From contig JAKIML020000092.1 in NCBI GenBank assembly GCA_022702935.2, positions 62,001-126,000 on the forward strand: 64,000 bases of DNA, written 5' to 3'. Within the stretch, counting starts at the first letter, position 1. Each line of letters starts with the position of its first letter. Shown piece by piece: positions 97 through 50,311 of this stretch. The notes beneath the pieces are model-generated. The model saw only the letters and a program-made list of their open reading frames with translations, made no database searches and was not told where the DNA came from. Source of the DNA: Bacillota bacterium (GTDB lineage Bacteria > Bacillota > Clostridia > DSM-8532). A program made the translations under genes and the position numbers.

Positions 97-3000
97 TCAG
101 CCCGTCCTTTGCTTTTTCATTTGTTCAAGCTGCCTGTCATACAGCTCCTGAATCTTGTCCTTGTCCTTATCGATAATGGCCGGGGGCACGGCATCGGGCA
201 ATATATCCTCCATATACCTGAGCGGCTTGTATTTTAAGCCTATGAAGCCCCAAATAAACTCGATAGCGCCAATGATGATAAACATCAGTCCCATACCTCT
301 TCCGGCGCCCGTTCCCACTAATCTTCCCAGACTGTCATAAAGCAGGCCGCCCTCTTTAAGCATGGGCTCAAAGACATTATCAGCAAGGGTTCCGGCCAGC
401 GCTGAAAAAGGAGCCAGTATGGAAGCCAGCATCTGATTGATGGAGAAAACACGGCCCTGCAACTCATAGCCCACCTTGGTTTGTATAATAATCTGCCAGT
501 GGGTGTTGATAAAGGCCACCGCAAGCCCCACACCAAACAGAGCAAGTGTGGTGAGTATGGCTGAAGGGCGCAGGCCAAAGAGGAACAGGGAGATGCCCGA
601 CAGCATAACAAAGCCAATCATTCCCTCCGCTCTTCTTTGGGTTCCACCCCAAAGGCTCATAATAAGGGAACCTAAAAGAAGTCCTGCACTCTGGGCCGCA
701 ACAATTATGCCGATTTTCCCCGCATCCAGGAAGGATAGAAGCAATGGCGTTATGAGGATTGAAGCAAAGCTTGCAAGGAAGTTATCGAAGATAAAGAATA
801 CCACCAGGGCAATCATGCTCTTTCGCTTAATAATATAATTCCAGCCTCCCAGAATTTCCTTCTTGAAGCTTTCCTCCTGCTTCCGATGCAGCGCATTGGG
901 GAAAGCCACAAAGGACAGGGTCAGGATGGAAATGAGGAAGGTAATAAAGTCTATCATAACAATCCCTGGAAGCCCCAGCACAACAACCAGAGCGCCACCC
1001 AGGGCCGGCGCAATCAGGGAACCCGCCGACAATCCCAACTGAAGAAAGCCATTGGCATGTCCCAGGTAACGCTTGGGGACAATTTGAGGAACAGCCGCCA
1101 TAAAGGCCGGACGCTGAAAGCTCCCTGCAATGGAGCCCAGTGTTGTAGCAATATAGATATGAACAACCTTTACTTCACCCATGAAGAGCATGGCGGCAAT
1201 AAGGAGTGTTCCGGCAGCAGCAATCATATCACTGAAGATCATGACCTTCCGCCTGTCATACCGATCGGCAACAAGTCCCGCAAGTGGTGCCAGAAGGATA
1301 CCGGGTATCATGGCAAAAAGGGATATTGTCGCATAATCCGCCACATTTCCTGATTGATGATAGACCCAGATGCCCATGGCAAAACCCGATAACGTGGAAC
1401 CAAGTATTGAGACAATCTGTCCGAATGCCACAATCCACAGGAGTTTGAGACTGGGTTTAACTCTTTTGGCAGGCTGGGATATCTTATCTGCTGATTTGAT
1501 TTGAACAATCTTTGCCTCATTATGCCTTTGCTCTTTTTGTCTGGCCCATTCCCTGACCTGTCCAACCAGGATATCTTTGAGTTCCCGAGTCTGATGCTTA
1601 TGGAAGAAATGTCCTCCCCCCTCGATCACCTTGAGGTTGACCTGATCGCTGAAAAGCTCCCATTCCAGATAACGTTCCGCATAAAACTCGGTAGTTCTGT
1701 CTTTCTCTCCAATAATACAGCATATAGGCGCTTTCAGCTTTTGTGGTCCCTCTTTAGCGTTGGCGGCTTCGGTGAAGAAATCCAGAGAAGCCTTTGAATC
1801 ATGCCGCATGCCCTTAAGCATAAAGGCCTGCTCTTCCTTGTTCAGGGTTTCGTCCCCTCCGCCTATGCTTTTGAGCATTTCCTTATAGACCTTATCAGAA
1901 AGGAAGCGTTCCTCCGGAAAGAGCTTATTGATTAGCGCGAACAATTTTCCCGGTAAGCGTGAATCAGGAAAATTGGCTGCCTGGAATACGCCAATAATCT
2001 CTATCTTCTCTTCCTCAAGTAGTTGGGCCAGCTTGATGGCCAGGGCGCCACCGACACACTGTCCATAGATGGCAATGGGTCCCCTGACCTTGGTCTTAAT
2101 CTCTTCAAGACAGATTTGGGCAACCTCATCCAATGGCTTAAGCTCCTTATTGGCGCTTAAATAGTCATGGCCCGGTACCTGGACAGCATAGAGCTTGTAA
2201 CCCTCAGGCAGTACATCGGCCAAGGGCTTGTAGGTGATGGCATTGCCGCCGCCATAAGGTATACATATGAAATTAACCTTGGCCGATTCATGGGTTGGCC
2301 TTGTTAATTCATAAAGAATATCCTTGGACTTCTCCCTGTCCTTCTGAGATAATAACTCTGCCATTTCTCTGATGGTCGGATGCCTGATGAGATCAATAAC
2401 ATTCAGGGTACTGTCCATGCGTTTTACAGCCTTAATGGACTTAAAGGATTCGCCGCCAAGATCATAAAAATTATCGTCTATACCGACCTTATTAACCCCC
2501 AACACTTCCGACCATATGTCGGCAAGTCTTTGCTCCAAAGCATTCCGCGGCGGTACATAGGTTCTGTCGGACAAGCTCTGAACCTCATTGATTTCGGGTA
2601 ATCTGCCCAGATCAATCTTACCGTTGGCATTGAGGGGGATGGCCTCAATTTCAACGAAAACAGCGGGAACCATGTAATCAGGAAGCCGCGAACGTAAATA
2701 CCTTCTCAAGGCATCATAATCAATGGTGCTGTCGCAATCCCGAACCAGGTAGGCCACCAGCCGTTTGTCCCCCTGTCTGTCGTTTTTGGTGGTCACCACA
2801 GAGCTTCGTATCCCTTTAAAGTGAAGGATAACCTCTTCAATGCCCTCGGGTTCTATGCGATACCCTCTTATCTTTATCTGGCGATCCACCCTTCCTGCAA
2901 TAAAGATATTTCCGTCGGGCAAATATTTGACCAAATCCCCGGTACGATAGAGCTTATACGGGTTATCTTTGTCAAAGGGATCATCTATGAATCGCTCCCG

Positions 3001-6000
3001 GGTCTGTTGGGGATTGTTCAGATAGCCTCTGGAGACACATGGGCCGCCAATATACAATTCCCCTAATACGCCAATGGGCACGGGTTGTCTGCTTTCATCC
3101 AGAACATAGGTTATTACATTGTCCAAGGGACGCCCCAGGGGAACTACCCCTTTAGAATCGTCCAGGGCTTCATCATCGACTCTATAGCATAGCGTAGATA
3201 CGGTAGTTTCGGTGGGCCCATAGTTGTTATAAACAGCACATTGAGGCTTAAGCCTCTTTACCTTCTTCACAGTTTCATAGGTCAGGGCCTCCCCGGCAAA
3301 GATGATGAGCTTGTTGGGAATGACAATGCTTGCATCAGGCAGTGCCTGCAAGGCCTCAAAATGGCTGGGAACCAATTTCATGGCATCGATAGAATAGCTT
3401 CTGAAATACTCGGCAAATTTTTCGGGATCAGAAGCCCGCTCATAGGAAAGAATATGAACCTGCCCTCCTGTGGTCAGCGGAACATAGACGTTGGTGCTGC
3501 CAAGATCAGCCGCAAAGGTTGTTACAATGGCAAAGCTCATGGGGCCTTGTATATCCAGCCTTCTGATAATGCCCTGCAGATAATTGAGGTATTGACGGTG
3601 CTCCACCATAACCCCTTTGGGCCTGCCCGTAGTGCCCGAGGTGAACAGGATGTACATGAGGTTTTCCTTCTCCACCTTTACCTCAGGATTACTGTCGGGA
3701 TAGGTTCTTAGCACATCCTCTTCCTTGCTCAGATTGAACACCTCAATGTGAGAAACCTGGGGGACTAGATTTTCGGTTTGATGATGGACGAGGACCATGG
3801 TCACCCCGGACTCAATGAGTACATCCCTCACCCTTTCCTGGGGCCAGGCAGCATCTATGGGCACATAGGCACATCCTGCCTTAAGCGTACCCAGGATGCC
3901 CACCAGAAGCTCCAATGAACGATCCATATAAAGACCTACACCCTGCTCGGGCTTAAGCCCCTTACCTATGAGATAGTGTGCAAGCTGATTGGCTTTACGA
4001 TTCAATGTGTCATAGGTATAGCATTGTCCCTCAAAATATACCGCCGCACCATTCGAATTCTTTTTCACCTGTTTTTCAAACAGATGATGGACAGCACTCT
4101 CAGCATAGGCTTCCTTTGCATGGGTCTGGTTAAAGTCCACCATGAGCTGATGCCATTCTGATTCATTGAGAAGGCTGATATCACCAATCCTTGCGTCCGG
4201 GTTTTCCAATACCTTGATTAATAGCGTCTTATAATGCTCGAGCATCCTTTTGGCTGTATCCTGGCGGAAAAGGGCCGTACAGTATTCCAGCCCCATGGTG
4301 TAGGCATCTCCATAGGCATGAATGCTCAGGGTCATGTCGAATTTGGCAATAGGATTATGGGCTCCAACGCTTTCAAGCTTTGCTCCGGCAAAATTCAAAG
4401 CACTGTCTCCGCTGCTCTGGAAGACAAACAGGGTATCGAACAGGGGATTTCTCGACATATCCCTTTTCAGCCCTATGGCCTCCACCAGTTCTTCAAAAGG
4501 ATAGTCCTGGCACTCAAAGGCTTTGAGCACCTTCTCCTTCATCTCCTGTAAGAATTCCGAGAACTTTTTACTGCCATCGGGCTTCCCCCTCAGGGCTAGC
4601 GTATTGACAAACATCCCCAGCATTTCTTCGGTATCCTTATGGGTTCTGCCGGATATGGGCGTTCCGACAACGATATCGTTCTGTCGGCTGTATTTACTGA
4701 GAAACACCATATAAACCGAAAGGAGGATCATGAACTCTGTGGTTTGGGTTTTTCTGGTCAGGGCCTTAAGCCTGCTGGTAACCTCACCAGGAAGCTCGGC
4801 ATGAACACTGGCGCCTTTAAAGCTGCGTTCCTTGGGTCTTTTATAGTCGTAGGGAAGCTCCAAAACCGGAACACTTTCCTTAAACTCATTGATCCAGAAG
4901 CTCTTTTGATGGGAAATGTCTCTTGTTCGCATCCATTCACTATAGTCTTTATATTGAAGCCGCAATGGCTTAAGCGTTTGTGCATTATAAAGTGCTGTGA
5001 GCTCATCCATAAATATGGTGTTGCTTATCCCATCACTGATAATATGGTGCATATCCAGAAGAAGGAGCCATTCCTCCTCCCGTTTGATCGCCTGCATGCG
5101 AATCAGCGGGGGGTTTCCAAGGTCAAAGGGCTTTACAAAGCGCTCGATGATCTTTTCATCGGGAATACCTGGATCCTCAAGGACAGCAAAATCGGGTTCC
5201 ATGGCATCATGGATTCTTTGGATGAGCGTCTCACCCATCACTGAAAAGCCCGTGCGCAGGATTTCGTGGCGCTGGATCATGCTCTTCAGGGCTTCTTTGA
5301 GCCTGTCAGCATCCAATTCGCCTTTGACTCTGAAGGCCTGGGGCATATTGTAGGTCGTGCCGTGGGACTCTAACTGATTCATCAGAAATGTTCGTTTCTG
5401 GGTTGAGGACATGGGATACCATTCCCTCACCTGGGCAGGAGGTATGGGCTTATGCATCTCATTGCTTTCCAGCAGCGATGCCAGACCTTCAACAGTAGGA
5501 CAGGAAAAGATATGCTTTAGGGTCAATCGAAGGCCTGTCTCGGCTTCAAGAGCATTGACAAGCTTAGCCGCCAGCAAGGAATGGCCCCCCAGTTCAAAAA
5601 AGTTATCGGTGATACTTACCTCTTGGATACCGAAAATATCGGAAAAAACCGAGGCGACTGTTTGCTCTTCTTTGCTTCTGGGCGCGATATATTGTTCATG
5701 AGCCTGGACCGTGATTTCAGGAAGTGCTTTTCTATCAAGCTTTCCATTCCTTGTTACAGGGATTGATGCAATTTGCATCATATAGCGCGGTACCATATAC
5801 ACAGGAATCGATTGATAGAGCTGTTCCTTTACCGTTGAAAGACTCAGGCTTTCATGGGAGACCAGATAGGCATGGATGGAAGGCTCACCGGTCTTGTCCT
5901 CCCTTACAATAACCGCCGCATCCTGAATGCCGTCAATCCGCCTTAAGGCACTCTCCACTTCTCCCAGCTCTATTCGATACCCCCTTATTTTAACCTGGTC

Positions 6001-8685
6001 ATCCACCCTGCCCAAAAACTCAATATTTCCGTCAGGCAGCCAACGGGCAAGGTCGCCGGTGCGATAAAGTCTACCCTCTCCAAAGGGGTTTTTGATAAAC
6101 TTCTGAGCTGTGAGCTCCGGGTTATTCAGATAGCCTCTCGCCAGCCCAACACCTGCTATACAGAGCTCGCCGGGCACGCCTATGCCGCAAAGGGATGTGC
6201 CTTGAAGGATATACACCTGTGTGTTTTGAATGGGCTTGCCAATAGGAATATTGACATATCCTTCTGCCAAGTGGCATTCATAAGCAAGGGCATCCACTGT
6301 AGTTTCTGTAGGTCCGTAATGGTTATATAATGCATAACCCGCTTTTATGATCTTGTTGCTGAGCTCGGTATTAAGCTTTTCGCCTCCTGAGATAACAGCT
6401 CTTATGGATTTGACAGCCTCAAAATTGGCGATTTCATTAGATATGCCATGGGGCAAATCAGCCACATGAATCTTGTGCTCTGTCAAATACTCTCTTAAAA
6501 GATGGGGATCGGTTCTTAGACTCTCATTGACGATATAAAGGGTTGCCCCGTGCAGGGTTGACGTAAAAAGCTGCTCAACAAAGGGATCAAACACATAATT
6601 GGTCATCTGCACCATTCTGGTATTGGAATCAATGGCATATTTCCGGGCAAACCAGCAGCATACATTGACAACACCGGAATGCTCCACCATAACCCCCTTG
6701 GGACGCCCCGTGGTTCCGGAGGTGTAGATAACATACATTAAGTCATTGGGCTGATTGACAGGCTCAGGATTTTCATAGGCCCCCTCCCACACATCAGCAT
6801 GGGCAAGATCCATGACGGGCAGATTCGTGTTGACATTTACCTGATAGGTCAGGACAAGCTTTGGCTTTAAATCATTGAGGATATAAGCAGTCCTCTCTGC
6901 GGGATTTTGCGGATCAATGGGCACATAGGCCGCACCTGCCTTAAGAATACCAAAAATTCCCGCAACCATTTCGAGGCTTCGCTCCGCCACTATGGCCACA
7001 AAGTCATTGGGCCCAATCCCTGCCTTTTTAAGCCTGGCAGCAAGTGCATTGGCTCTTTGGTTAAGCTGAGCATAGGAAAGCCTCTCCTTCTCATATACGA
7101 GAGCAATTTGATGGGGCGTTCGCTCCACCTGCTTTTCAAAGAGCTGGATTACCGTTTCCTCTTTTGGATAATCCGCATGGGTGGCATTAAAGTCATAAAG
7201 AATCAAATCCTTCTCTTGCTCCGTTACAAGAGGTATATCAATGATCCTTTCCGTCGAATGAGAAACCATTTGTTGAAGCGCTTCCTTGTAATGTCCAATG
7301 ATCCTCTCAATGGTCGAGGGAGAATAAAGATCGGTATTATACTCAATATGCCCTTTGACCAGATCTCCTTCCTCTGTGATGCTCAAAAGAAGCTCATAGG
7401 CTGCTGCTCTTCCACCCAAGCCATATTCTTGAACCATTAACCCTTCCAGTCTGAGGATCGTCTTTGGTACATTGACATAATTAAACATCATCTGAAAAAC
7501 AGGACTCCTGCTTGGATCTCTCTGTATATTCAACTCATCCACAATGCGTTCAAAGGGTATATCCTGATTTTCAAAGGCATCAAGCACTGTTTTTTTTACA
7601 GTCGCAATCAGTTCCTCAAAAGTCATTCCATCCTGCAGTTCAGTGCTCAAAACAATAGTATTGACGAAGTACCCGATAACATTTTCAAGCTCGGGTATAT
7701 TTCTGTTGGCCATGGGTGAGCCCACAATTATCCTGGGCGGGCGGGTATATTTGTAGATAAGAAACATAAAAGCGGCGAGAGCTGCCATGTACATGGTGCA
7801 GCCATGGGATCTTACAAAGCTCCTCAAAGCATCGGATTCATCCCTGGTCAGTTCAAAGAAAATCACATCGCCATTGCTCGTCAAAATGTTAGGTCTCGGT
7901 TTATCGGGCGGGATTTCAACCGGTGTAAGCGAATCGCCCAACTGTCCTTTCCAGTAGTTTATCTGCTTGTCCAGGGTGCCACTATGTACTCGTTCTCTCA
8001 GCCAATGGGCATAGTCCGGGTATTGAACCTCCAAAGATGGCAGTGCATAATCCCTATTCTTTGACCAGGCCTCATAGATCTGGAAAAGCTCATTGAGAAA
8101 AATACTCATGGACCATTGATCAAAAACAATATGATGTACGGTTACCACCAGAATGGTATCCTCGGGTCCCATGAGGATGAGCTTGCACCGAATAAGCGGC
8201 GGTGCCTGCAAATCAAAGAGCGTTACAGATTCCTTTCTAGCAATGATACTGGCTTTTTCCTCTCGCTCGGTGCTGTTATAGTCGGAAAGATCAATGGTCT
8301 CAATATTAAGTGCCAAGTCCGAGAGCACAATCTGCTTCGGTTCCCCATCGACTTGCCAGATGCATGTTCTTAAGGCTTCATGACGCTTAACAATCTCGTT
8401 AAGCGCCCTTTTCAGCAATTCCCTATCCAGCTTCCCCTTGAACCTGAGGCCAAAGGGAAAATTATAACCAAGGTTCTGGGGATCAATCTGGTCATTGAGC
8501 CAGAGCCCGTGTTGAACAAAGGACAAATGAAAAGGGGTCTCCCCAGGGTTTCGGGGTTGTATGTTGATTTTCCCTTCATCGTCCTCTGCTTTATTATCCT
8601 GTTTGATTCTTTTCTTTTCCAAAAGAGCCATCAGCGCAGCACGCTTCTCAGGCGTAAGCTGCTCCATAAGCCGCTGCTTGTTCAT
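97..8685 (-). CDS. Bimodular NRPS (C-A-T-C-A-T-TE) fused to an MFS exporter
   Basis: Assembly-line enzyme of about 2862 residues. Order read from motifs: N-terminal helix (LTPEKRAALMALLEKK); C1 with HHIVFDQ near 183; A1 (YTSGTTGRPKG near 653); T1 LGGHS near 1035; C2 with canonical HHIISDG near 1213; A2 (FTSGTTGRPKG near 1680); T2 LGGES near 2077; thioesterase from about 2135 with GQCVG near 2210; then from about 2410 a complete multi-helix MFS transporter (MFS_3/EntS-like look). By family knowledge it condenses two activated monomers onto an upstream unit, releases the product and probably exports it from the same polypeptide. The A1 pocket reads about D-P-E-D-I-G-H-V-D-K, whose acidic positions hint at a basic residue. 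A2 lacks the usual Asp. The ATG at 8685 is preferred over one 27 bases earlier because GGGAG lies just upstream. Last gene of a four-gene operon. The architecture is certain; the product is not. Confidence 0.95.
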   Translation of the reverse strand: MNKQRLMEQLTPEKRAALMALLEKKRIKQDNKAEDDEGKINIQPRNPGETPFHLSFVQHGLWLNDQIDPQNLGYNFPFGLRFKGKLDRELLKRALNEIVKRHEALRTCIWQVDGEPKQIVLSDLALNIETIDLSDYNSTEREEKASIIARKESVTLFDLQAPPLIRCKLILMGPEDTILVVTVHHIVFDQWSMSIFLNELFQIYEAWSKNRDYALPSLEVQYPDYAHWLRERVHSGTLDKQINYWKGQLGDSLTPVEIPPDKPRPNILTSNGDVIFFELTRDESDALRSFVRSHGCTMYMAALAAFMFLIYKYTRPPRIIVGSPMANRNIPELENVIGYFVNTIVLSTELQDGMTFEELIATVKKTVLDAFENQDIPFERIVDELNIQRDPSRSPVFQMMFNYVNVPKTILRLEGLMVQEYGLGGRAAAYELLLSITEEGDLVKGHIEYNTDLYSPSTIERIIGHYKEALQQMVSHSTERIIDIPLVTEQEKDLILYDFNATHADYPKEETVIQLFEKQVERTPHQIALVYEKERLSYAQLNQRANALAARLKKAGIGPNDFVAIVAERSLEMVAGIFGILKAGAAYVPIDPQNPAERTAYILNDLKPKLVLTYQVNVNTNLPVMDLAHADVWEGAYENPEPVNQPNDLMYVIYTSGTTGRPKGVMVEHSGVVNVCCWFARKYAIDSNTRMVQMTNYVFDPFVEQLFTSTLHGATLYIVNESLRTDPHLLREYLTEHKIHVADLPHGISNEIANFEAVKSIRAVISGGEKLNTELSNKIIKAGYALYNHYGPTETTVDALAYECHLAEGYVNIPIGKPIQNTQVYILQGTSLCGIGVPGELCIAGVGLARGYLNNPELTAQKFIKNPFGEGRLYRTGDLARWLPDGNIEFLGRVDDQVKIRGYRIELGEVESALRRIDGIQDAAVIVREDKTGEPSIHAYLVSHESLSLSTVKEQLYQSIPVYMVPRYMMQIASIPVTRNGKLDRKALPEITVQAHEQYIAPRSKEEQTVASVFSDIFGIQEVSITDNFFELGGHSLLAAKLVNALEAETGLRLTLKHIFSCPTVEGLASLLESNEMHKPIPPAQVREWYPMSSTQKRTFLMNQLESHGTTYNMPQAFRVKGELDADRLKEALKSMIQRHEILRTGFSVMGETLIQRIHDAMEPDFAVLEDPGIPDEKIIERFVKPFDLGNPPLIRMQAIKREEEWLLLLDMHHIISDGISNTIFMDELTALYNAQTLKPLRLQYKDYSEWMRTRDISHQKSFWINEFKESVPVLELPYDYKRPKERSFKGASVHAELPGEVTSRLKALTRKTQTTEFMILLSVYMVFLSKYSRQNDIVVGTPISGRTHKDTEEMLGMFVNTLALRGKPDGSKKFSEFLQEMKEKVLKAFECQDYPFEELVEAIGLKRDMSRNPLFDTLFVFQSSGDSALNFAGAKLESVGAHNPIAKFDMTLSIHAYGDAYTMGLEYCTALFRQDTAKRMLEHYKTLLIKVLENPDARIGDISLLNESEWHQLMVDFNQTHAKEAYAESAVHHLFEKQVKKNSNGAAVYFEGQCYTYDTLNRKANQLAHYLIGKGLKPEQGVGLYMDRSLELLVGILGTLKAGCAYVPIDAAWPQERVRDVLIESGVTMVLVHHQTENLVPQVSHIEVFNLSKEEDVLRTYPDSNPEVKVEKENLMYILFTSGTTGRPKGVMVEHRQYLNYLQGIIRRLDIQGPMSFAIVTTFAADLGSTNVYVPLTTGGQVHILSYERASDPEKFAEYFRSYSIDAMKLVPSHFEALQALPDASIVIPNKLIIFAGEALTYETVKKVKRLKPQCAVYNNYGPTETTVSTLCYRVDDEALDDSKGVVPLGRPLDNVITYVLDESRQPVPIGVLGELYIGGPCVSRGYLNNPQQTRERFIDDPFDKDNPYKLYRTGDLVKYLPDGNIFIAGRVDRQIKIRGYRIEPEGIEEVILHFKGIRSSVVTTKNDRQGDKRLVAYLVRDCDSTIDYDALRRYLRSRLPDYMVPAVFVEIEAIPLNANGKIDLGRLPEINEVQSLSDRTYVPPRNALEQRLADIWSEVLGVNKVGIDDNFYDLGGESFKSIKAVKRMDSTLNVIDLIRHPTIREMAELLSQKDREKSKDILYELTRPTHESAKVNFICIPYGGGNAITYKPLADVLPEGYKLYAVQVPGHDYLSANKELKPLDEVAQICLEEIKTKVRGPIAIYGQCVGGALAIKLAQLLEEEKIEIIGVFQAANFPDSRLPGKLFALINKLFPEERFLSDKVYKEMLKSIGGGDETLNKEEQAFMLKGMRHDSKASLDFFTEAANAKEGPQKLKAPICCIIGEKDRTTEFYAERYLEWELFSDQVNLKVIEGGGHFFHKHQTRELKDILVGQVREWARQKEQRHNEAKIVQIKSADKISQPAKRVKPSLKLLWIVAFGQIVSILGSTLSGFAMGIWVYHQSGNVADYATISLFAMIPGILLAPLAGLVADRYDRRKVMIFSDMIAAAGTLLIAAMLFMGEVKVVHIYIATTLGSIAGSFQRPAFMAAVPQIVPKRYLGHANGFLQLGLSAGSLIAPALGGALVVVLGLPGIVMIDFITFLISILTLSFVAFPNALHRKQEESFKKEILGGWNYIIKRKSMIALVVFFIFDNFLASFASILITPLLLSFLDAGKIGIIVAAQSAGLLLGSLIMSLWGGTQRRAEGMIGFVMLSGISLFLFGLRPSAILTTLALFGVGLAVAFINTHWQIIIQTKVGYELQGRVFSINQMLASILAPFSALAGTLADNVFEPMLKEGGLLYDSLGRLVGTGAGRGMGLMFIIIGAIEFIWGFIGLKYKPLRYMEDILPDAVPPAIIDKDKDKIQELYDRQLEQMKKQRTG

Positions 8686-8722
8686 TATTCTCCCGTTCCC
8701 TTCTCTAAGCATTAACCCGCTT

Positions 8723-10066
8723 CTAACTCCTGTTTTTCTTTCTGCTCATCAGGTATGCCCATACCTCAGAGGACAGATTTGGCCGCACAGATGACGTATC
8801 CTTAGGCCTTTGAGTGCTGAGCGCTTCAGCTCCAGAATTCTCTGCCATGTACGCATGGGATATGGCATAGTCCTTGTTTCCAGCATAGGCCTCCACTCTG
8901 TCACAAACCTCTGTCAAAGCATCATCTGCGGGAATCTCCTTCAAAAATTGATGGCATCGTGCTTTATAGTCCGGTTCGAGAAGCTTTTTTAGGGTATTGG
9001 CAATGAGTATCGGATCCCACCGTGAAGGAGGTAGGTATTCTCCTACGCCCAGACTTTTGATTCTACTGGCGTTAAGGGGACGATCCACATAACAGGCCAG
9101 GGCCAATTGTGGCACGGCTGCATATACTGCGCCGCTGGTGGTTCCGATACCACCATGATGGATAATGGCTCCCATATGAGGCAGTACTGCATCTAAAGGA
9201 AGATGGCTAAACCAGGTAATATTGGGTGGGAGCGTATGGGGCAAAAGTTCTTTATAGCGGGTGACAACAATGGTCTTCCTTCCAAGAAGCCCACAGGCCT
9301 CTATGGCCTTGATGTAGAAGTCCTGTCTAATCTGTTTGCTTGTGCCGCCGGAGATGATAATGGGTGCAGGATCATCCCTGACATACTTCAGGAACTCCTG
9401 ATTGTCCCGAGCCAAAACATCTTGCCTTCTTTCAAGAGGAAAACCAATGGGTTCAATGGTTCCAGGCCACTCTGATAACTCGTTTGAAAACCACTTGGGC
9501 CATAATGCCAACTGAATCTTGGGGCTGCTTTGCCAGGACAGCCAGCCGTCAATGGGTAAAAGCCCTACCCGCCTTCTTAACTGGTTCACTTCATTCTTAA
9601 GCCTTTCTTTATACAAGCTCTCGAAGTTCACCATACTTCCCGTTTCATAGGGGTTCATAAAGAATAAAATGAGCGGACACTGGTGGATTTCTGAGGCCAT
9701 TAAGGCTGCGATACTGGATCTGTTTTTTGCAAGCAGAATGGAATTTTCCTTCTGGCAATACCTTTGAACAATCTCTAATTCCTTAAGCCTGACATCTATA
9801 CTTTCATACTTTTCTCTGAAACGATGGATTTCCTCTGCCCCTGCCACTGTATCGCTGTAGCTTCCCATATCATGAATCATTTGCGCATACTGATCAGGGG
9901 AATCCCATGCAGCGAAATCAAGTCCTGCTTCCCTGGCCATTCTTTCATAAAAACAATGGGTAATGAGGGTGACGCTATGGCCTCTCCTTTTGAGCGTCCT
10001 TCCTATTCTGACGAAAGGAATAACATCACCATCTGTCCAATGGGTGGTTATGACTACATTTGCCAT
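8723..10066 (-). CDS. GT1/UGT-type glycosyltransferase (second copy)
   Basis: A 447-residue protein of the MGT/RhlB-like GT1 (GT-B fold) glycosyltransferases, which move a sugar from a nucleotide sugar to a small-molecule acceptor in the cytoplasm. The N-terminus (MANVVITTHWTDGDVIPFV) is the acceptor-domain start of this family. The donor-site signature is HHGGIGTTSGAVYAAVPQL near 320, followed by the usual ADRP-like stretch (here YVDRP) and LGVGEYL. GAGGAG precedes the ATG. It lies 24 bases after its paralogue and 37 bases before the NRPS, so it is co-transcribed with peptide assembly. The likely acceptor is the peptide or one of its residues, which is inference. The donor sugar cannot be read from sequence. 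No sugar-biosynthesis genes are nearby, so a housekeeping nucleotide sugar is likely. Confidence 0.88.
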   Translation of the reverse strand: MANVVITTHWTDGDVIPFVRIGRTLKRRGHSVTLITHCFYERMAREAGLDFAAWDSPDQYAQMIHDMGSYSDTVAGAEEIHRFREKYESIDVRLKELEIVQRYCQKENSILLAKNRSSIAALMASEIHQCPLILFFMNPYETGSMVNFESLYKERLKNEVNQLRRRVGLLPIDGWLSWQSSPKIQLALWPKWFSNELSEWPGTIEPIGFPLERRQDVLARDNQEFLKYVRDDPAPIIISGGTSKQIRQDFYIKAIEACGLLGRKTIVVTRYKELLPHTLPPNITWFSHLPLDAVLPHMGAIIHHGGIGTTSGAVYAAVPQLALACYVDRPLNASRIKSLGVGEYLPPSRWDPILIANTLKKLLEPDYKARCHQFLKEIPADDALTEVCDRVEAYAGNKDYAISHAYMAENSGAEALSTQRPKDTSSVRPNLSSEVWAYLMSRKKNRS

Positions 10067-10090
10067 TTTTATCTCCTCATTTCATGCCAT

Positions 10091-11431
10091 TCACTTTGCT
10101 TTGCTTCTCAAAATTTCCATGAGAAGCTGCTTCCTTTTTGATAATGAGGCACTTGGCAGGGCTTCCGGTGAAGCTGTGTCATTCTCCCTCTGAGTTACGG
10201 ACATAAAGGGCTTTATATCATGGCAGGATGGTACAAAGCTTGGATTATCAAGCATCTCCTCAAGGATGGTATTTAGCCTGTATACCGGATTCTCTCCATG
10301 ATGGATTTCACTGAGGCGCAAGCACATGGTTCTGCGTTCAGCAGTGTCGAGGGTGCTCAATTCGTGGGCCAGGACTTCGGCAGTCCATAGGGATTCAGGC
10401 AGGCTTTTGGCAACACCCAACTGTTTGAGTCTCTGGGCATTGTCAGGCCGATCAGCCATATGGGCCAGTATTAATTGTGGAATGGCACAGGCAACGGCCT
10501 CACAGGCAGTATTAATACCGCCGTGATGAATAATGGCACAGGCGTAAGGCATGAGCTGCCTAAGAGGTACATAAGTGAAATGTCTGATATATTCAGGCAG
10601 ATAGGTTGGAACAAATTCCTCAAAGGGTGATATCACAATGGCGGGCTGTTTGAGAAGCATGCATCCGTCGACAGCCACTTTGTAGAAGCGCGGATTAATC
10701 ATCCTGCTTGTACCGCCCGTTATAATAACAGGCTTTGAATATCTATCGAGAAAAGCTTGCAGTTCCGGTGAAAACACTTCCTGGCTTTGCCCCTCGTCAA
10801 CAAGAAAACCTGCTTTCACTAAGCCATCCAGCGCCTCATCCTCCTGATTCGCGTACCATTGAGGCCAAAGGGCTATCTTTCTTTTTGTGGAACACATCCA
10901 GTCCGTCCAGCATTGAATGGGCTCCAATCCCATGGTCTGCCTCACCCGGTTAATTTCCTCCTTCATGACCTTTCCAAAAAGCTCCTCATGAAAAGCCAGA
11001 TGAGAGATATAGTTGGGCGACAGGAAAACCGATGTGGCAGGCTTATTCATTGATTCAGCAGCTAATAGCGCTGAGACACTTGAACGGTGTCTGAAAAGAA
11101 GAATGGTATCTTTTCTCCTGCAATGGTTTTGGATGAGTTTCACTTCTCTCAGGCATCTCGTATGGCCGTGATGCTTCCTCTGAAAGTTAAGGGCTCCTTC
11201 AAGATTCCCTATGGGGTCCGACAGCAAAGGAAAATCCCTCACCATCTCCTGGTACTCGGTCATAGTATCCAGCGCCTCAAAATTTAAGCCCTTGCCAATG
11301 GCCTTATCCCTGTAAATGCAATGGGTAAAGATCGTCACATCATGACCTTGCTTATTCAAGGACTCTCCCAATTTTATAAAGGGCATCACATCGCCCGAGG
11401 TCCAGTGGGTGACCAATAGAATATTCGCCAA
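10091..11431 (-). CDS. GT1/UGT-type glycosyltransferase (first copy)
   Basis: A 446-residue GT1-family glycosyltransferase, clearly paralogous to the next gene: both begin MAN-(V/I)-L/V-(I/V)-TTHWT/VTHWT and both carry the HHGG donor motif (here HHGGINTACEAVACAIPQL near 316) followed by ADRPDNAQRLKQLGV. It starts with TTG at 11431 behind a strong AAGGAGG at 7-base spacing, and that site overlaps the stop codon of the upstream A-T gene, so translational coupling is likely. The family transfers sugars to lipids, macrolides and other small acceptors in the cytosol. Here a diglycosylated or sequentially glycosylated nonribosomal product is the natural inference. Tandem duplication with divergence suggests two different acceptor positions or donors. 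Confidence 0.88.
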   Translation of the reverse strand: MANILLVTHWTSGDVMPFIKLGESLNKQGHDVTIFTHCIYRDKAIGKGLNFEALDTMTEYQEMVRDFPLLSDPIGNLEGALNFQRKHHGHTRCLREVKLIQNHCRRKDTILLFRHRSSVSALLAAESMNKPATSVFLSPNYISHLAFHEELFGKVMKEEINRVRQTMGLEPIQCWTDWMCSTKRKIALWPQWYANQEDEALDGLVKAGFLVDEGQSQEVFSPELQAFLDRYSKPVIITGGTSRMINPRFYKVAVDGCMLLKQPAIVISPFEEFVPTYLPEYIRHFTYVPLRQLMPYACAIIHHGGINTACEAVACAIPQLILAHMADRPDNAQRLKQLGVAKSLPESLWTAEVLAHELSTLDTAERRTMCLRLSEIHHGENPVYRLNTILEEMLDNPSFVPSCHDIKPFMSVTQRENDTASPEALPSASLSKRKQLLMEILRSKAK

Positions 11432-11442
11432 AACGATCCTCC

Positions 11443-13299
11443 TTAGCTATTGATGAGCCTTCGCATTTCTTCTTCAGTAATCCCTTCCAGTTCGCTCATC
11501 ATTTCTTCCATATCTGATTCACTGAGAGTAGACAATAGCTTAATCTCTATGAGGCGGGACAGATCGGCTATAGTGAGACCCTCGGTCAGGAATTCCATCA
11601 AGGTTAGCCGGATATCATAGGTTCTGTTGATTCTTGCCAGCATACGATTTGCAAGCAGCGAATGACCGCCCAGCTCAAGAAAATTCTCATCAATACTGAT
11701 GCAGCTCAGTTCCAGCATTTCTTCCCATAATTGGGCGATTTCCTTTTCCAGGGGACTTGTGGGAGGTACATACTTATTCTGAGGCTTTTCCGGCTCAATC
11801 CCCATGGACATGAGACTTTTCCGGTCTATTTTTCCGTTAAGGGTCAGGGGGAATGCCTCCAATTCTGTGAGAAGGGACGGTACCATATATTCTGGAAGTT
11901 TTGATTTAAGATAAGTCCTAAGCACATCGGACTTAACAGGCTGAGCCCCTGACCTGGTGTAATAAACTGCTAAAACAGCATCGCCTGCTTTACTCTCCAA
12001 TGCCACTGCGACGGCCTGCTTAACCAGAGGATGCTTTTCCAACGTATTTTCAATTTCTCCTAATTCAATTCTGTAACCGCGAATTTTTACCTGGAAATCG
12101 GTACGGCCTTCATAGTAGACCAGTCCTTTCTCTCGCCGTGCCAAATCCCCGGTTCTGTAGATGCGCTCGGAGCCATCCGCCAGGGGATTTAATACAAATC
12201 GCTCCCCGGTAAGTTCGGGCCTGCCCAAATACCCCATGGACAGCCCATCTCCTCCTATATACAGTTCCCCGACCTCACCCTCGGCAACCTCCTCCATGGC
12301 TTCATTAAGAATATAGATTTGCGTATTGTCAATGGGCTTGCCGATGGATACAGGTCCTTCACCGTGCTCCACCCGATAGATCATGGACCATATGGTGGTT
12401 TCAGTGGGACCATACAGATTCCATACTGAAGAGCCCTTTGTCAGAAGCACTTCCGCCAGTTCCCTTGTAAGTGCCTCACCGCCGCAGAGAAGTTTCAGGT
12501 TTTGCTTTCCCTTCCAGTTGGTGTCTATCAGGATGCGATAGGTGGATGGCGTGGCCTGCATGAGTGTTACATCATGCCTGTCGATATACTCAGCCAGCTT
12601 GACGCCATCTGCAGCAGTCTCACTAGTGGCCATAACCATGGTGGCTCCGCTTATCAGGGGAAGATAGAGCTCCAGCCCCGAGATGTCAAAGCATATGGTG
12701 GTAATGAACAGCACTTTATCCTCAGCCGAAATGCCCGGCTCTTTTCGCATGGACATTAAGAAATTGACCACTGCTTGATGGGATATCTGAACCCCTTTGG
12801 GATTGCCTGTAGATCCCGAGGTATAAATAACATAAAGCCTTTTTGAGGCTTCGAACCGCAGCCCGGGATTGTCAGGTGAATAGCCGGGCAGCTTCTCATG
12901 AATATCCTCCAGGACAAGCTTCTGGGCAGGGATATTCTGAATGTCCGCAAGAAGCGAATTCTCGGTGATGACCAGTGCGATTTTTGCATCATTAATAATA
13001 TAGCGAATTCTATCATAGGGGTAGGACGAATCCAGAGGAATATATGTTCCGCCCATTTTTACAACCGCTAGTATGGCAGCCACCATGTCTATGGACCGAT
13101 TGAGATAGATACCTATGGGATACTCAAAGTTAATCCCCTGTTCCCATAGGTAATGTGCAAATCGATTGGCTCTTTCATTGAGCTCAGAATATGTAATAGT
13201 CTGTTGTTCAAAGATGATGGCGGCTTTTTGCGGGTTTATGCCTGCCTGTTCTTCAATGAGACAGTTAAGCGGAATCTTAGGGTAATCTTGAGCTTTCAT
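11443..13299 (-). CDS. Stand-alone NRPS A-T didomain, predicted glycine-activating
   Basis: A 618-residue adenylation-thiolation protein with no condensation or thioesterase domain. The A domain carries YTSGSTGNPKG (ATP loop), YGPTETT, GYRIELGEIE and NGKIDRKSL. The thiolation Ser is in LGGHSLL near residue 546. Pocket residues taken by alignment to the GrsA positions read D-I-L-Q-L-G-L-I-W-K, which I know as a glycine code. It should load Gly on its own carrier domain and pass it to C1 of the fused NRPS. The acidic C-terminal tail (SELEGITEEEMRRLI) resembles docking tails and could pair with the LTPEKRAALMALLEKK helix that opens the large NRPS. AAAGGA precedes the ATG at 13299. First gene of the operon, only 11 bases ahead of the glycosyltransferases. 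Confidence 0.92.
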   Translation of the reverse strand: MKAQDYPKIPLNCLIEEQAGINPQKAAIIFEQQTITYSELNERANRFAHYLWEQGINFEYPIGIYLNRSIDMVAAILAVVKMGGTYIPLDSSYPYDRIRYIINDAKIALVITENSLLADIQNIPAQKLVLEDIHEKLPGYSPDNPGLRFEASKRLYVIYTSGSTGNPKGVQISHQAVVNFLMSMRKEPGISAEDKVLFITTICFDISGLELYLPLISGATMVMATSETAADGVKLAEYIDRHDVTLMQATPSTYRILIDTNWKGKQNLKLLCGGEALTRELAEVLLTKGSSVWNLYGPTETTIWSMIYRVEHGEGPVSIGKPIDNTQIYILNEAMEEVAEGEVGELYIGGDGLSMGYLGRPELTGERFVLNPLADGSERIYRTGDLARREKGLVYYEGRTDFQVKIRGYRIELGEIENTLEKHPLVKQAVAVALESKAGDAVLAVYYTRSGAQPVKSDVLRTYLKSKLPEYMVPSLLTELEAFPLTLNGKIDRKSLMSMGIEPEKPQNKYVPPTSPLEKEIAQLWEEMLELSCISIDENFLELGGHSLLANRMLARINRTYDIRLTLMEFLTEGLTIADLSRLIEIKLLSTLSESDMEEMMSELEGITEEEMRRLINS

Positions 13300-13370: not shown

Positions 13371-13522
13371 TTACAAATTTTAGTTTTAATGTCTAATCGT
13401 TGGTTATATTTTGTTTTTAGCGCATACATATATATGATAATATTTCCATATGTTGTTATTTGTAGAACTTAGTATGTCCTTTTTTGTTATATTATGGCTC
13501 TTAAAACAGTGAGGTTTTGCCT

Positions 13523-14161
13523 ATGATTTATCTGTATTTTGATATAGATGCCTTCAAAGACACTGATTATGACAATTTACTGAATCTTGCCTCACAGGAG
13601 CGGGCCGAATATTTAAGCCGATATCGGTTTATGAAGGATAAAAAAATAGGACTATTGGCCTATCTGCTTTTGCGCCTGGGTCTTAAAGAAGAGTTTGGCT
13701 ATAATAAAAAGCCTGTCTTTTATTATGGCGTGAACAACAAGCCCTATCTGAAAAACCCAGAGCATGTGCTTTTTAATCTGTCCCATTGTGCTTTGGGTGT
13801 GGGTTGCGGTATCTCAACCAATGAAATTGGAATCGATATTCAGGACATTGTCCCCTACAATGAGGATGAGGCCTCCATCGTTCTTTCCGAAAGGGAGAAG
13901 CATCTGCTGGCATCATGTGATAACAAGGATCTGACTTTTACTATATTGTGGGCGCTTAAGGAAAGCTATCTTAAATACAGTGGACAGGGAATTACAGAGG
14001 ATCTTACGGCCTATGACTTTTCGGCCTTTGACCTAAAGCCTTTCTGGCTCTTTGGCAAACGTTTTTCCATAAGCCTTTACAAGAATTGCGTTGTTTCGGT
14101 CTGCTCGGAAAGGGAAGAAAAAATCCGGATTGTATCGAAGTCTGAGTTATACACTTTGTGA
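13523..14161 (+). CDS. Sfp-type 4'-phosphopantetheinyl transferase
   Basis: A 212-residue enzyme that moves phosphopantetheine from coenzyme A to the carrier-domain Ser, turning the three T domains of the adjacent NRPS genes into active holo forms. Family signatures visible are NLSHC near 85, GIDIQDI near 105 (Mg-binding Asp) and the WALKESYLKYSGQG block near 150, the WxxKEaxxK motif of Sfp-group enzymes. Length fits the Sfp class rather than the short AcpS class. A TTG six bases earlier is possible, but GAGG at 13511 sits 8 bases from the ATG at 13523, so I use the ATG. It is divergent from the NRPS operon over a 220-base gap, so co-regulation is plausible. Confidence 0.93.
   Translation: MIYLYFDIDAFKDTDYDNLLNLASQERAEYLSRYRFMKDKKIGLLAYLLLRLGLKEEFGYNKKPVFYYGVNNKPYLKNPEHVLFNLSHCALGVGCGISTNEIGIDIQDIVPYNEDEASIVLSEREKHLLASCDNKDLTFTILWALKESYLKYSGQGITEDLTAYDFSAFDLKPFWLFGKRFSISLYKNCVVSVCSEREEKIRIVSKSELYTL

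Positions 14162-14249: not shown

Positions 14250-14250
<1 letters not shown>
14211..14250. terminator. Bidirectional intrinsic terminator
   Basis: A perfect 9-base stem (CCCTGAATG / CATTCAGGG, loop of 7) flanked by TTTTT on the plus side and a T-rich run on the minus side. It ends the phosphopantetheinyl transferase transcript from the left and the tRNA-Arg transcript from the right. Confidence 0.88.
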
Positions 14251-14326
<76 letters not shown>

Positions 14327-14402: not shown

Positions 14403-15722
14403 TTAGCTTTCTTCGCAATTCTCAAAATCAATGACAGCGCCCTGAGCCTTGAGTGTTTCAACCAGGAGATGGGTATCCATTTCGGTAAAGGCATACCCCT
14501 TCTCGACTGCAATGGCTGCGGCCGTTCCGGCAGCCTGTCCCATGGCCATACAGCAGGCCATGACACGCATGGAGCCAAAGGCCGCATCATCGGCGCAGAC
14601 ACATCTTCCCGCTGTAATCACGTTTACGCTATCCTTAGGTACAAGGACACGGTAAGGAATATTATACTCCTTCTTCAGCACCACAACCACCTGCTCTATG
14701 CTGTCGGGCTTATGGATATCAATGACATGGGCACCCTTGCAGACCGTGTCGGGGAAGGCCTTGGGATTGAGCACATCGTCGGTGGTCAGCTCATAGAGGC
14801 CCTCAATGCGGAAGGTTTCACGGACCCCTGCCTGGGCTCCGGCCTTGGCCAGCCAGCAATTCTTAAAGGCCGGGAACTCCTGGCGCAGGATGGGAATGAC
14901 CTTGAACAGATCCTCTCTCAAAACACATTCGGCACGGGTGAAGTCCTCGGGTGAGCTGGCATCGGTGCCCGTTCTCAAGAGATTGATGGTCACCATGCCG
15001 TCATGGAACTGCTTGCTTATCCATGGACCGCCGAAGATGGGCATTTTACCTTCCTTATTCAGTTCACCCAAGCGTCCGCGGATTTCCTCACTGATGGGCA
15101 TGACCCCATGCACCGCATCTTCAAAGAGGGGCTTTATGGCATCGGTATCCACGCCGCCAAGCTGCATCCAGAGGGTGGCCGGCTGAAGGGTTTCCTTCTT
15201 GGTGGTTTTAAACCCTGCCGCTCTGACGATATCAGCATCGCCGGTACAGTCCACAACAGCTTTGCAGCCATAGGCCGTCCGTCCTGCCTTATTCTGTACA
15301 ATGACGTGGGTGACACGTCCCTCCTCAGTCACGCAATCTGCGATAAAGGTATGGTAAAGAAGGGTCACGCAGCTTTCCAGCAGCATGCGTTGTGCAGCCA
15401 GTTTCAGGGCCTCATCATCAATAAACACATTGCCGCTTTCCAGGTTGGTGATAGCACCGCCCAGCGCTTCCGTCCGTTTCATCAGCTCAAAGGGCATGCC
15501 GTCAATAATCTGCTTGCCTTCGATACGGAATTCACTGACCGGGGTAACAAGGGCGCTGGAGGCCATGCCTCCCACAAAGCCATAGCGTTCGATTAAAAGG
15601 GTTTTCGCGCCATTCCGAGCCGCTGCCACTGCAGCGATGATTCCTGCCGGACCGCCCCCGCAGACAATGACGTCATAGCTTCCAACAACGGGAATGGCTT
15701 CTGATTCTCTTATAATGGTCAT
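14403..15722 (-). CDS. FAD-dependent oxidoreductase (FAD_oxidored type), paralogue 1
   Basis: A 439-residue flavoprotein. The dinucleotide fold opens with VIVCGGGPAGIIAA near 20, the E of LLIERYG binds the FAD ribose, and CTGDADIV near 170 is the conserved second motif. AGVRETFRIEGLYEL near 305 and AGRCVCADDAAFGSMR / GQAAGTAAA near 390 to 410 close the fold. The family oxidises alcohol or CH-CH groups of mostly unknown substrates; no activity can be assigned from sequence. It has no signal peptide, so it is cytosolic. It is the last gene of the minus-strand sugar operon, 73 bases after the FGGY kinase. It differs from the other four paralogues by RETF instead of RETR. Confidence 0.88.
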   Translation of the reverse strand: MTIIRESEAIPVVGSYDVIVCGGGPAGIIAAVAAARNGAKTLLIERYGFVGGMASSALVTPVSEFRIEGKQIIDGMPFELMKRTEALGGAITNLESGNVFIDDEALKLAAQRMLLESCVTLLYHTFIADCVTEEGRVTHVIVQNKAGRTAYGCKAVVDCTGDADIVRAAGFKTTKKETLQPATLWMQLGGVDTDAIKPLFEDAVHGVMPISEEIRGRLGELNKEGKMPIFGGPWISKQFHDGMVTINLLRTGTDASSPEDFTRAECVLREDLFKVIPILRQEFPAFKNCWLAKAGAQAGVRETFRIEGLYELTTDDVLNPKAFPDTVCKGAHVIDIHKPDSIEQVVVVLKKEYNIPYRVLVPKDSVNVITAGRCVCADDAAFGSMRVMACCMAMGQAAGTAAAIAVEKGYAFTEMDTHLLVETLKAQGAVIDFENCEES

Positions 15723-15794
15723 GTCGGTCTACCTTCCTCTCCTGTTTTTCAGAGGGTATGTTGTCTTTATCACCGTAAAAGCTCTATACAGCCC

Positions 15795-17315
15795 TTACAG
15801 ATCTCCCATGTCCTTCATGTCCTGTTTCAGGTTGTTATAGATCTGATGGTACATTTTATAGTACTTATTGTACTTTTCATGGGCCTCGGCATTGGGTTCG
15901 ATCTTGTCCCCCAGCACCTGCCATTTCTTTACATCCTCCAGGGTTAATAAGCCCGTACCCAGCCCGGCCAGCATGACATCGCCCAGATTGGCCTCAACAT
16001 CGTTAATGGGACAAACCATGGCATAGCCCGTCACATCGGCAAAGATCTGCTTCCAAAGCTTGGACTTGGCCACACCGCCGGCCAAGAGGATATGTCCGCC
16101 TAAATTCTCACCGGTGGATTCCATGGTATGGCGCAGCGAATAGGCCACGGCTTCGAGAAAGGCACGATAGATATGGGCTCGGGTATGCATGAGGGACAGA
16201 CCGAAAATAACGCCCTTGGCATTGGTATCCCATACCGGGCTTCTCTCCCCCATAAAATAGGGCAGCACCAGAAGGCCATCGGAGCCGGCAGGCAGCTTGG
16301 CCGCTTCCTCGTCCAGGGCCTTGTAGGCGTTCTTTCCGCCCTTTTCCTCTATTTCCTTCTCAAGCTGCGCAAAGGTGTCGCGGAACCATTTGACAATGGC
16401 TCCCGCTGTCGCGCCGCCGCCAAAGGAATAGGACAATTGCTTGGGATTGATGATATAGGGCCACTCAATGAGATTCTCTGCCTTAATGGGCTTATCGTGG
16501 ATCAGGGCCGCACACATGGAGGTCCCGATGGCCGCCACATATTCTCCTGGCTCAAATACCCCCAAGCCGAAGGATGCCACACCACAGTCTACGCCACCAG
16601 CGCAAACCGGTGTTCCTTCCGGAAGCCCCAGAGCCTCGGCAGCCTGCTTGGTCAGGCCCCCGACCACATCCTTGGACTCCACAATCTTTTCAGGCATCAT
16701 GGTTCTGGGAATACCCATATCGTCCATGAGCTCATAGGACCAGTAACGAGTGTTCATATCGAAGATTCCGCCAATGTTTCCGGCCGATGAATAGTCAATG
16801 GCCACATTACCCGTCAGTTCGTAAATCACATAGGCATTGGGCGGCAGAAAGAGCTTAATTCTCTCCCAGTTCTCGGGCTCATTGTCCTTTATCCAGAGAA
16901 TCTTCAGATAACCGTAATAGGGGTCGGTGCCGTTATGGGTAATGGCTTTAAGGCGTTCCACCCCGATATGCTCCTTCACCCATTGCTCCTCTTCGGTAGC
17001 ACGCCTGTCCATCCATATGAGACAGGGCCGAACGGGCTTCATTTCCTTATCCAGCGGTATTCCTGAACCGCCATAAAGACCGCTGATACAAATGCCGGCG
17101 ATGTCCGAAGGGTCCACCTTGGATTTTTTAACCGCATTGGCAATGGAGCGCTTGGTGGCCTCCAGCCACACCTGGGGCCACTGCTCGGCCCATAGGGGCT
17201 TGGGTGTCAATACGTCATATTCCTGCAGATCCTGGGCAATCAAATGACCCTGGGTATCCATAATGATGGACTTAGTTCCGGAAGTTCCTATGTCGGTTCC
17301 TATTAAATACTTCAT
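15795..17315 (-). CDS. FGGY-family carbohydrate kinase (xylulokinase-like)
   Basis: A 506-residue sugar kinase. The N-terminal phosphate-binding turn is IGTDIGTSGTKSIIMD, the catalytic Asp lies in CAGGVDCGVASFGLG near 250, and the second ATP-binding block is HILLAGGVAKSKLWKQI near 425. FGGY enzymes phosphorylate ketoses, polyols or sugar acids with ATP. Length and motifs resemble xylulokinase, but substrate cannot be fixed. It sits between an SDR and an FAD oxidoreductase in an importer operon, so it probably traps the last keto-sugar product and commits it to central metabolism. GGAAGAAGG precedes the ATG. Confidence 0.92.
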   Translation of the reverse strand: MKYLIGTDIGTSGTKSIIMDTQGHLIAQDLQEYDVLTPKPLWAEQWPQVWLEATKRSIANAVKKSKVDPSDIAGICISGLYGGSGIPLDKEMKPVRPCLIWMDRRATEEEQWVKEHIGVERLKAITHNGTDPYYGYLKILWIKDNEPENWERIKLFLPPNAYVIYELTGNVAIDYSSAGNIGGIFDMNTRYWSYELMDDMGIPRTMMPEKIVESKDVVGGLTKQAAEALGLPEGTPVCAGGVDCGVASFGLGVFEPGEYVAAIGTSMCAALIHDKPIKAENLIEWPYIINPKQLSYSFGGGATAGAIVKWFRDTFAQLEKEIEEKGGKNAYKALDEEAAKLPAGSDGLLVLPYFMGERSPVWDTNAKGVIFGLSLMHTRAHIYRAFLEAVAYSLRHTMESTGENLGGHILLAGGVAKSKLWKQIFADVTGYAMVCPINDVEANLGDVMLAGLGTGLLTLEDVKKWQVLGDKIEPNAEAHEKYNKYYKMYHQIYNNLKQDMKDMGDL

Positions 17316-17337
17316 ATCCTTCTTCCTCTCTCTATCT

Positions 17338-18114
17338 CTAGAAGCATGTAAATGCGCCGTCTATGACGAAGTCTGATCCAGTGGTGAAGTCGCTGGCGTC
17401 CCCTGCCAGATAAACCGCAATGGCCTGAAGTTCCTCAGGCCTGCCCAGCCGTTTTAAGGGTGACAGCCTTTCCCATTCGGCAATAAGGGGCTTCAAGGTC
17501 GGGGAATTAAGGGTAAGATCGGTTCCGATATACCCGGGACTGATGCTGTTGACCCGTACCTTTTTGGATGCCCACTCGATGGCCAGGGATTTGGTGAGCT
17601 GCACTACTCCGGCCTTGGATGCGTTATAGGCGCATTGGGGCTGAGGAATATTCACAATATGGGCCGACATGGAGGCCGTATTGATGATGGAACCTCCACC
17701 CTGAGCAATCATTACTTTGCCGGCGGCCTGACAGGTCAGAAAGACGCCTGTCAAATTGACATCAATGACCTTCTTCCACTGCTCCAGGGTCATTTCCTCG
17801 GCAGGTGTATTAATGCAGATACCCGCATTGCAGAAGGCCACGTCGATTCTTCCGAAATGTTTTAGAATCTCGGAGATCATATGGTCCACATCCTGGGGAT
17901 TGGTCACATCGGTCTTGACAGACAGGGTTTTCCGCCCGGTTTCCTGGGCGATGTGTTCTGCGGTTTTCCGGGCCTGATCCAGGTCCATGTCCACAATGGC
18001 CACATCGGCACCGGCCTGGGCCACGGCCAGGGCAATATTCATCCCTATGCCACGGGCCCCTCCCGTTACAAAGATCTTCTTGCCATCCAGGCGCATTTTC
18101 TCAAGAATACCCAT
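17338..18114 (-). CDS. Short-chain dehydrogenase/reductase (SDR)
   Basis: A 258-residue classical SDR. The cofactor-binding TGGARGIG is near 15, D of VDMD after the second strand favours NAD, NAG of FCNAGI is near 90, and the catalytic Ser-Tyr-Lys reads NTASMS...YNASK. The start is set at ATG 18114 because AGGAGG lies 6 bases upstream; an ATG 21 bases earlier overlaps the preceding stop and has no site. It is similar to gluconate or sorbitol dehydrogenase-type SDRs. It interconverts a hydroxyl and a ketone on the imported compound by context, between an FAD oxidoreductase and the kinase. Confidence 0.9.
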   Translation of the reverse strand: MGILEKMRLDGKKIFVTGGARGIGMNIALAVAQAGADVAIVDMDLDQARKTAEHIAQETGRKTLSVKTDVTNPQDVDHMISEILKHFGRIDVAFCNAGICINTPAEEMTLEQWKKVIDVNLTGVFLTCQAAGKVMIAQGGGSIINTASMSAHIVNIPQPQCAYNASKAGVVQLTKSLAIEWASKKVRVNSISPGYIGTDLTLNSPTLKPLIAEWERLSPLKRLGRPEELQAIAVYLAGDASDFTTGSDFVIDGAFTCF

Positions 18115-18134
18115 AGCGCCCCTCCTCTTTTCCA

Positions 18135-19442: not shown

Positions 19443-19504
19443 AATTAAACTGCCTCCTTGGAGTCCTGATAAGCTCCATGCTGATAAGTATAAACCTGAT
19501 ATCT

Positions 19505-19545
19505 ATAAAAGGATGCGCAGAACGGGCACTTCCGGTCTGCGCATC
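19505..19545 (-). terminator. Intraoperonic hairpin / weak terminator
   Basis: GATGCGCAGA and TCTGCGCATC (19512-19545) pair around a GC-rich loop. On the minus strand the stem is followed by CCTTTTATAG, a short T-rich tail. It lies between two FAD oxidoreductase genes of one operon, so it may lower expression of the downstream genes or protect the upstream mRNA. Confidence 0.5.
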
Positions 19546-19561
19546 TTCTTGAGCGATCTTT

Positions 19562-20929: not shown

Positions 20930-20962
20930 ATACTTCAATCTCCCTAATATACTCTTTTTTAG

Positions 20963-20992
20963 TTTGTAGCAGCCCCGAAGGACTGCTACAAA
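20963..20992 (-). other. UUCG-type stable hairpin after the solute-binding protein gene
   Basis: TTTGTAGCAG and CTGCTACAAA form a perfect 10-base stem. On the minus-strand RNA the apex reads CC-UUCG-GG, a very stable tetraloop. No T-run follows. It sits between the solute-binding protein gene and the first enzyme gene, the usual place for a 3' mRNA-stabilising hairpin that raises binding-protein levels over downstream products. Confidence 0.7.
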
Positions 20993-21009
20993 TCAGGAAT
21001 GACTATGTT

Positions 21010-50253: not shown

Positions 50254-50311
50254 ATGATCATAGAAAACCTATGCACATCCTATACCCCTCCATCGCTCGT
50301 AGAGTTCATGG

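Follow-up and report, generated by a model that had tools for sequence, protein, structure and literature searches.

Glycosyltransferases encoded beside a starter carrier in a conserved but sporadic nonribosomal peptide synthetase operon of a clostridial bacterium

What do two tandem glycosyltransferase (GT) genes do between genes for nonribosomal peptide synthesis, and on which substrate do they act? The question is raised by a clostridial contig (JAKIML020000092.1, positions 62,001 to 126,000; this whole stretch of 64,000 nucleotides is called the window), in which a first-pass annotation had read a four-gene operon in the order A-T, GT, GT, nonribosomal peptide synthetase (NRPS). Pfam domains, strand and coordinates bear out this order, with all four genes on the minus strand. 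The gaps along A-T, GTa, GTb and NRPS are 11, 24 and 10 bases, the last becoming 37 bases with an internal ATG (MNKQRL) as the NRPS start, in which case the previously given range of 11 to 37 bases fits. The features are as follows, in window coordinates:

13517..14161, plus strand: PPTase, divergent, likely carrier activator (family match)
11443..13299, minus strand: A-T loading protein, 618 aa, free-standing, predicted Gly, T serine intact (Pfam, code)
10091..11431, minus strand: GTa (GT1a), 446 aa, GT1-type glycosyltransferase, GT-B fold (Pfam, tree, AlphaFold, Foldseek)
10097..10150, minus strand: C-terminal basic helix of GTa, residues 428-445, putatively docking-like (AlphaFold, tail profile)
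8723..10066, minus strand: GTb (GT1b), 447 aa, second GT1-type glycosyltransferase, separate conserved subclade (Pfam, identity, tree)
97..8712, minus strand: NRPS, 2871 aa, C-A-T-C-A-T-TE-MFS (Pfam)
7213..8535, limits approximate, minus strand: C1 domain, HHIVFDQ (Pfam, motif)
5719..7140, minus strand: A1 domain, code DPEDIGHVDK (Pfam, code)
4144..5427, minus strand: C2 domain, HHIISDG (Pfam, motif)
2593..4074, minus strand: A2 domain, code DLTKIANVSK, Asp/Asn-like (Pfam, code)
1600..2268, minus strand: TE domain, Cys at the nucleophile position, GQCVGG (Pfam, motif)
376..1446, minus strand: MFS transporter domain fused to the NRPS C-terminus (Pfam)

The PPTase gene diverges from the operon upstream and encodes the sole Sfp-sized PPTase of the genome, the other match to the family being a 128-aa AcpS-sized frame only. 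Genome-wide, there are no C domains beyond the two of the NRPS and no further GTs of the GTa/GTb kind. The cluster is complete on the NRPS side, as the contig runs on into a uridine kinase gene (udk). A tRNA-Arg (tct) gene at 14250-14326 separates the PPTase gene from a sugar-type catabolic operon (14403-22596) with three FAD_oxidored paralogues, an FGGY kinase, an SDR and a solute-binding protein. This tRNA gene lies just after udk in three sister genomes and 3.4 kb before udk in one; its closeness to udk in several sister genomes shows that the locus has been rearranged within the genus. The idea that the operon simply inserted between udk and tRNA-Arg was rejected, no clean empty site being present in the sister genomes compared. 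Rfam gave no riboswitch near the operon; a cobalamin riboswitch (119 bits) lies at 50307-50489 on the minus strand of the window.

The loading protein contains AMP-binding (4e-85), AMP-binding_C and PP-binding (2.8e-12) domains and ends in an acidic C-terminal tail, LSESDMEEMMSELEGITEEEMRRLINS. Its specificity code, DILQLGLIWK, is read as glycine, this and the other codes having been derived by alignment to a GrsA segment that gives the expected DAWTIAAIC. The starter and final A codes are in line with those of a published survey, DILQLGMIWK for Gly and DLTKVGHVGK for Asp or Asn (PMC12283262), the latter code also belonging to a characterised hydroxy-Asp domain (PMC10391617). For A1, the acidic pocket residues alone suggest a basic amino acid, and the predicted peptide backbone would be Gly, a basic residue and an Asp-like residue. 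The NRPS has A, T, C and TE domains with HHxxxD and the T serine intact, and its TE has Cys, not Ser. A Cys-type TE with the same fused MFS domain is present in all six terminal NRPSs compared (window, L014, L027, L030, L033 and L037), which come from Clostridia, Paenibacillus and an actinomycete; a narrow literature search found no paper on such an NRPS-MFS fusion. The cluster has three A domains in all, in place of a vancomycin-type heptapeptide NRPS, and the glycopeptide-like product proposed in the first-pass annotation is, if taken in the vancomycin sense, unlikely for a predicted peptide of three residues. The glycolipid-like product proposed beside it finds no acyl-loading or lipid enzyme in the operon and a starter A domain that reads glycine, and is not supported on this gene content.

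GTa and GTb are 35% identical and both match EryCIII-like_C (2.3e-16 and 2e-21, respectively), GTa also matching UDPGT (1.5e-8) and Glyco_transf_28 N-terminal (1.4e-5). In the AlphaFold model of GTa (mean pLDDT 90.2), the GT-B core is predicted with confidence and a low-confidence linker leads to a helix spanning 428-445; the model's top Foldseek matches are all GT1 enzymes (E 1e-23 to 1e-18), the closest being UGT51, GtfB, GtfA and CalG1. Both proteins keep the nucleotide-sugar motif HHGGxxT and the GDV motif at the catalytic-base position, and G13, D14, H302, H303, G304, G305 and D327 are invariant in 28 GT sequences. By the GT-B fold of the GTa model and these motifs, both can be assigned to the GT1 type and are predicted to transfer sugars.

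Related loci were sought by scanning one genome per species in 84,980 species, and 80 loci were kept. Three further genomes (G364, L027 and L030) share the order A-T, GT, GT, C-A-T-TE-MFS, and the objection that it might not be kept in relatives fails. G364 belongs to the same class but to a different family; its A-T protein is 48% identical and a GT 46% identical to those of the window, and the second GT and the C-A-T-TE-MFS protein follow, with a polysaccharide deacetylase and a PLP enzyme downstream. The Clostridia MAG L027 and Sporanaerobium hydrogeniformans (L030) add a deacetylase and a PPTase. Polysaccharide deacetylases are found in G364, L027, L029 and L030; the window operon has none, the nearest homologue elsewhere in its genome being 36% identical. 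Paenibacillus athensensis (L033) encodes A-T, a single GT and C-A-T-TE-MFS, and Catelliglobosispora koreensis (L037) encodes FkbH-T, GT and C-A-T-C-A-T-TE-MFS with Gly-like and Asp-like codes. In Eremiobacterota (L038) and clostridial G245, the protein encoded after FkbH-T is a fusion of GT and C domain. FkbH proteins score above the NCBIfam cut-off in L037, L038, G245, L035 and L008, most with a T domain. In Lachnospiraceae L023 and Rhizobium rhizogenes L024, a C domain standing alone, an A-T and a GT (two GTs in L023) are encoded beside a thymidylate-synthase-like gene; no elongation module is in view in L023, L024 or G245. The thymidylate-synthase-like genes are located just upstream of the carrier-GT genes (L023 1084-2145, L024 4926-6511 and L016, from G245, 8307-10337), where L024 also has a nucleoside deoxyribosyltransferase-like gene and G245 a SLOG (LDcluster4) gene, an arrangement that recalls nucleoside-antibiotic pathways.

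In rumen-type clusters (L025, L026, L028 and L034), A-T is preceded by a multimodular NRPS and accompanied by one GTa and by a PPTase, the last checked with Pfam in L025 and L034. DISGLGVIYK, an unusual starter code, is found in most rumen relatives, so their starter may differ. On a plasmid of Streptomyces sp. NBC_00441 (L008 7867-26133), an ACP gene overlaps the clade GT gene by 4 bases, amongst genes for an FkbH-T protein, a lone C domain, an MFS protein and nucleotide-sugar functions. Closer to the window, the GT was not found in 13 genus relatives and an order-level search gave a single 26% match, in a short locus beside a TetR-like regulator, and the operon is therefore regarded as sporadic; a phylum sample of 398 genomes held no further match at 1e-50. 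The glyco-NRPS operon is real and conserved, but sporadic.

The most informative feature of these loci, and a new point that the first-pass annotation had missed, is the coupling of carrier and GT. With GTs of at least 31% identity taken as related, a sequence coding for a T domain immediately precedes the GT (at most 400 bp upstream, same strand) in 16 of 16 related loci (L023-L038) and in none of 45 weaker matches, by a T-domain profile built partly from the tested loci, with L028, L029, L031, L032, L034, L035 and L036 outside the profile. The carrier stop lies -11 to +17 bases from the GT start in 17 of 19 loci. The tree covers 50 GTs, with an outgroup that is unevenly sampled because the query patterns were taken from carrier-linked members; in it, the 27 carrier-linked GTs fall on one side of a branch with support 100/100, and eight GTb members form a subclade with support 100/99. 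The carrier-linked GTs, found in Clostridia, Paenibacillus, Rhizobium, Actinomycetota and Eremiobacterota, are thus both monophyletic and preceded by an adjacent carrier gene, and across their loci the loader varies (A-T or FkbH-T) and the GT is constant. Adjacency and coupling indicate a shared pathway, not a substrate. Together with the conserved A-T, GT, GT, NRPS order, this clade gives good support to the earlier proposal of a glycosylated nonribosomal peptide. A two-sugar product is plausible on the gene complement, since GTa and GTb remain neighbours and GTb branches as a subfamily with good support.

The C-terminal tails of these GTs suggest how the coupling might work. Tails resembling NRPS N-terminal helices score at least 5 bits in 9 of 24 clade GTs, against 0 of 45 outgroup GTs and 4 of 480 shuffles, by a docking profile built from eight NRPS N-termini only, with which scores are low. 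A net charge of at least +3 is found in the tails of 19 of 24 clade GTs, and all 19 carriers have a net-acidic C-terminal tail, often LS(D/E)EE, the baseline C-tail charge of all ORFs in carrier-GT loci having a mean of -0.4 and an SD of 3.7. In the fusions of G245 and L038, a segment similar to this tail joins GT to C. The tail of GTb in the window is basic, yet does not match the docking profile, and neither G364 GT matches it or has such a tail, so docking by a tail helix would not be universal.

Computation establishes which genes are present, the order of their domains, their conservation, the adjacency of GT and carrier, the GT clade, the motifs and a predicted tail helix; docking, the timing of glycosylation, the acceptor, the sugars and the product are inferred. 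The gene set probably builds a tiny peptide, adds up to two sugars and exports the product. Our preferred reading, held tentatively and at not quite an even balance, is a minimal pathway in which a carrier-bound starter is glycosylated on-line and a short peptide is extended, released and exported. The PPTase would activate the carriers, and A-T would charge its own carrier with a small starter, predicted to be glycine. GTa, then probably GTb, would be recruited to the starter carrier, dock on it and add one or more nucleotide-sugar-derived sugars to the thioester-bound substrate; this carrier is the most likely site of action since it is the only one common to all clusters. C1 of the NRPS would take the starter, a basic residue and then an Asp/Asn-like residue would be added, and the cysteine thioesterase would release the product for export by the fused MFS domain. 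In FkbH-T variants the acceptor would be the glyceryl hydroxyl. A glycine starter would offer its amine, which stays free because the starter serves as donor only, and N-glycosylation would be required because glycine has no hydroxyl. This is the weak point of the on-line mechanism: no precedent for glycine N-glycosylation was found. Within an incomplete literature coverage there was nothing relevant, and no biochemistry, on carrier-bound glycosylation or on FkbH with a GT. A broader version, that a GT lineage docks on NRPS loading modules via NRPS-type helices and sugar-primes peptides in several phyla, N-glycosyl-glycine starting an exported tripeptide here, is possible and is offered with greater reserve.

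It is less probable, though well worth weighing, that both GTs glycosylate the short peptide only after its release, in the manner of GtfA, GtfB and GtfD in vancomycin-type pathways. The solved GT1 enzymes nearest to GTa act on released, free aglycones; side chains of the later residues would provide other acceptors and avoid glycine N-glycosylation. Against this, the GT always stands beside the starter carrier and not beside the TE or last module, GT-C fusions exist, GT tails are docking-like, and no elongation module is visible in L023, L024 or G245. The thymidylate-synthase-like genes of these three loci, accompanied in L024 and G245 by nucleoside-hydrolase-like genes, would suit another scheme, in which the GTs glycosylate a different acceptor such as a nucleobase or sugar, and the glycyl or glyceryl unit on the carrier is then joined to this glycoside by the C domain; the polysaccharide deacetylases could likewise free an amine on a GlcNAc unit. 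However, the window operon has no thymidylate-synthase-like, nucleoside-type or deacetylase genes, and ordinary C-A-T elongation with TE release is present in the window, G364, L027, L030 and L033, making this scheme improbable. It is very doubtful that the GTs serve self-resistance, inactivating a toxic peptide in the cell in the way of macrolide-inactivating GTs, with export restoring its activity, as the matches to macrolide-inactivating GT models are weak and score far under curated cut-offs, the fused exporter already gives self-protection, and the operon encodes two GTs but no glycosidase. That the GTs are unrelated passengers has nothing in its favour except that operons can in general include genes of no shared function, and is scarcely credible given an order conserved across families and phyla.

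Nonribosomal peptides generally receive their sugars after release. If on-line glycosylation is correct, a GT family recognising a carrier-bound starter would provide a sugar-priming step useful for pathway engineering. A carrier gene followed directly by a clade GT gene would then be a simple genome-mining signature for glycopeptides not yet studied in gut, rumen and soil bacteria, and the TE-MFS fusion, an assembly line carrying its own exporter, offers a further handle.

The locus bears comparison with several known systems. The clade GTs share with the GT1 antibiotic enzymes (GtfA/B/D, CalG1-4 and OleD) the GT-B fold, HHGG(I/M)GT and the Asp of the N-terminal GDV motif; structural alignments to the GTa model give TM-scores of about 0.6 to 0.75 at just 13 to 21% identity, and the clade differs in having DRP or DGP for the usual DQP, a C-terminal helix tail and a constant carrier neighbour. 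Known FkbH units load glyceryl carriers that feed polyketide or tetronate pathways; the relatives L037, L038, G245, L035 and L008 share FkbH, but in clade loci it precedes a GT, and the window uses an A-T loader instead. The TE of ObiF uses a Cys, the residue also present at the nucleophile position of the window TE, and the A-T-TE stretch 1828-2391 of the NRPS matches holo-ObiF1 (6n8e); however, in the window an MFS domain is fused after the TE and a beta-lactone product is not indicated. Among NRPS docking domains (COM, PAX and beta-hairpin), the PAX-type N-terminal domain is a single helix ahead of the C domain (PMC9113145). In the clade loci, single basic helices stand before C domains and at the ends of GTs, with the difference that the helix, whose docking role is putative, is carried by a glycosyltransferase.
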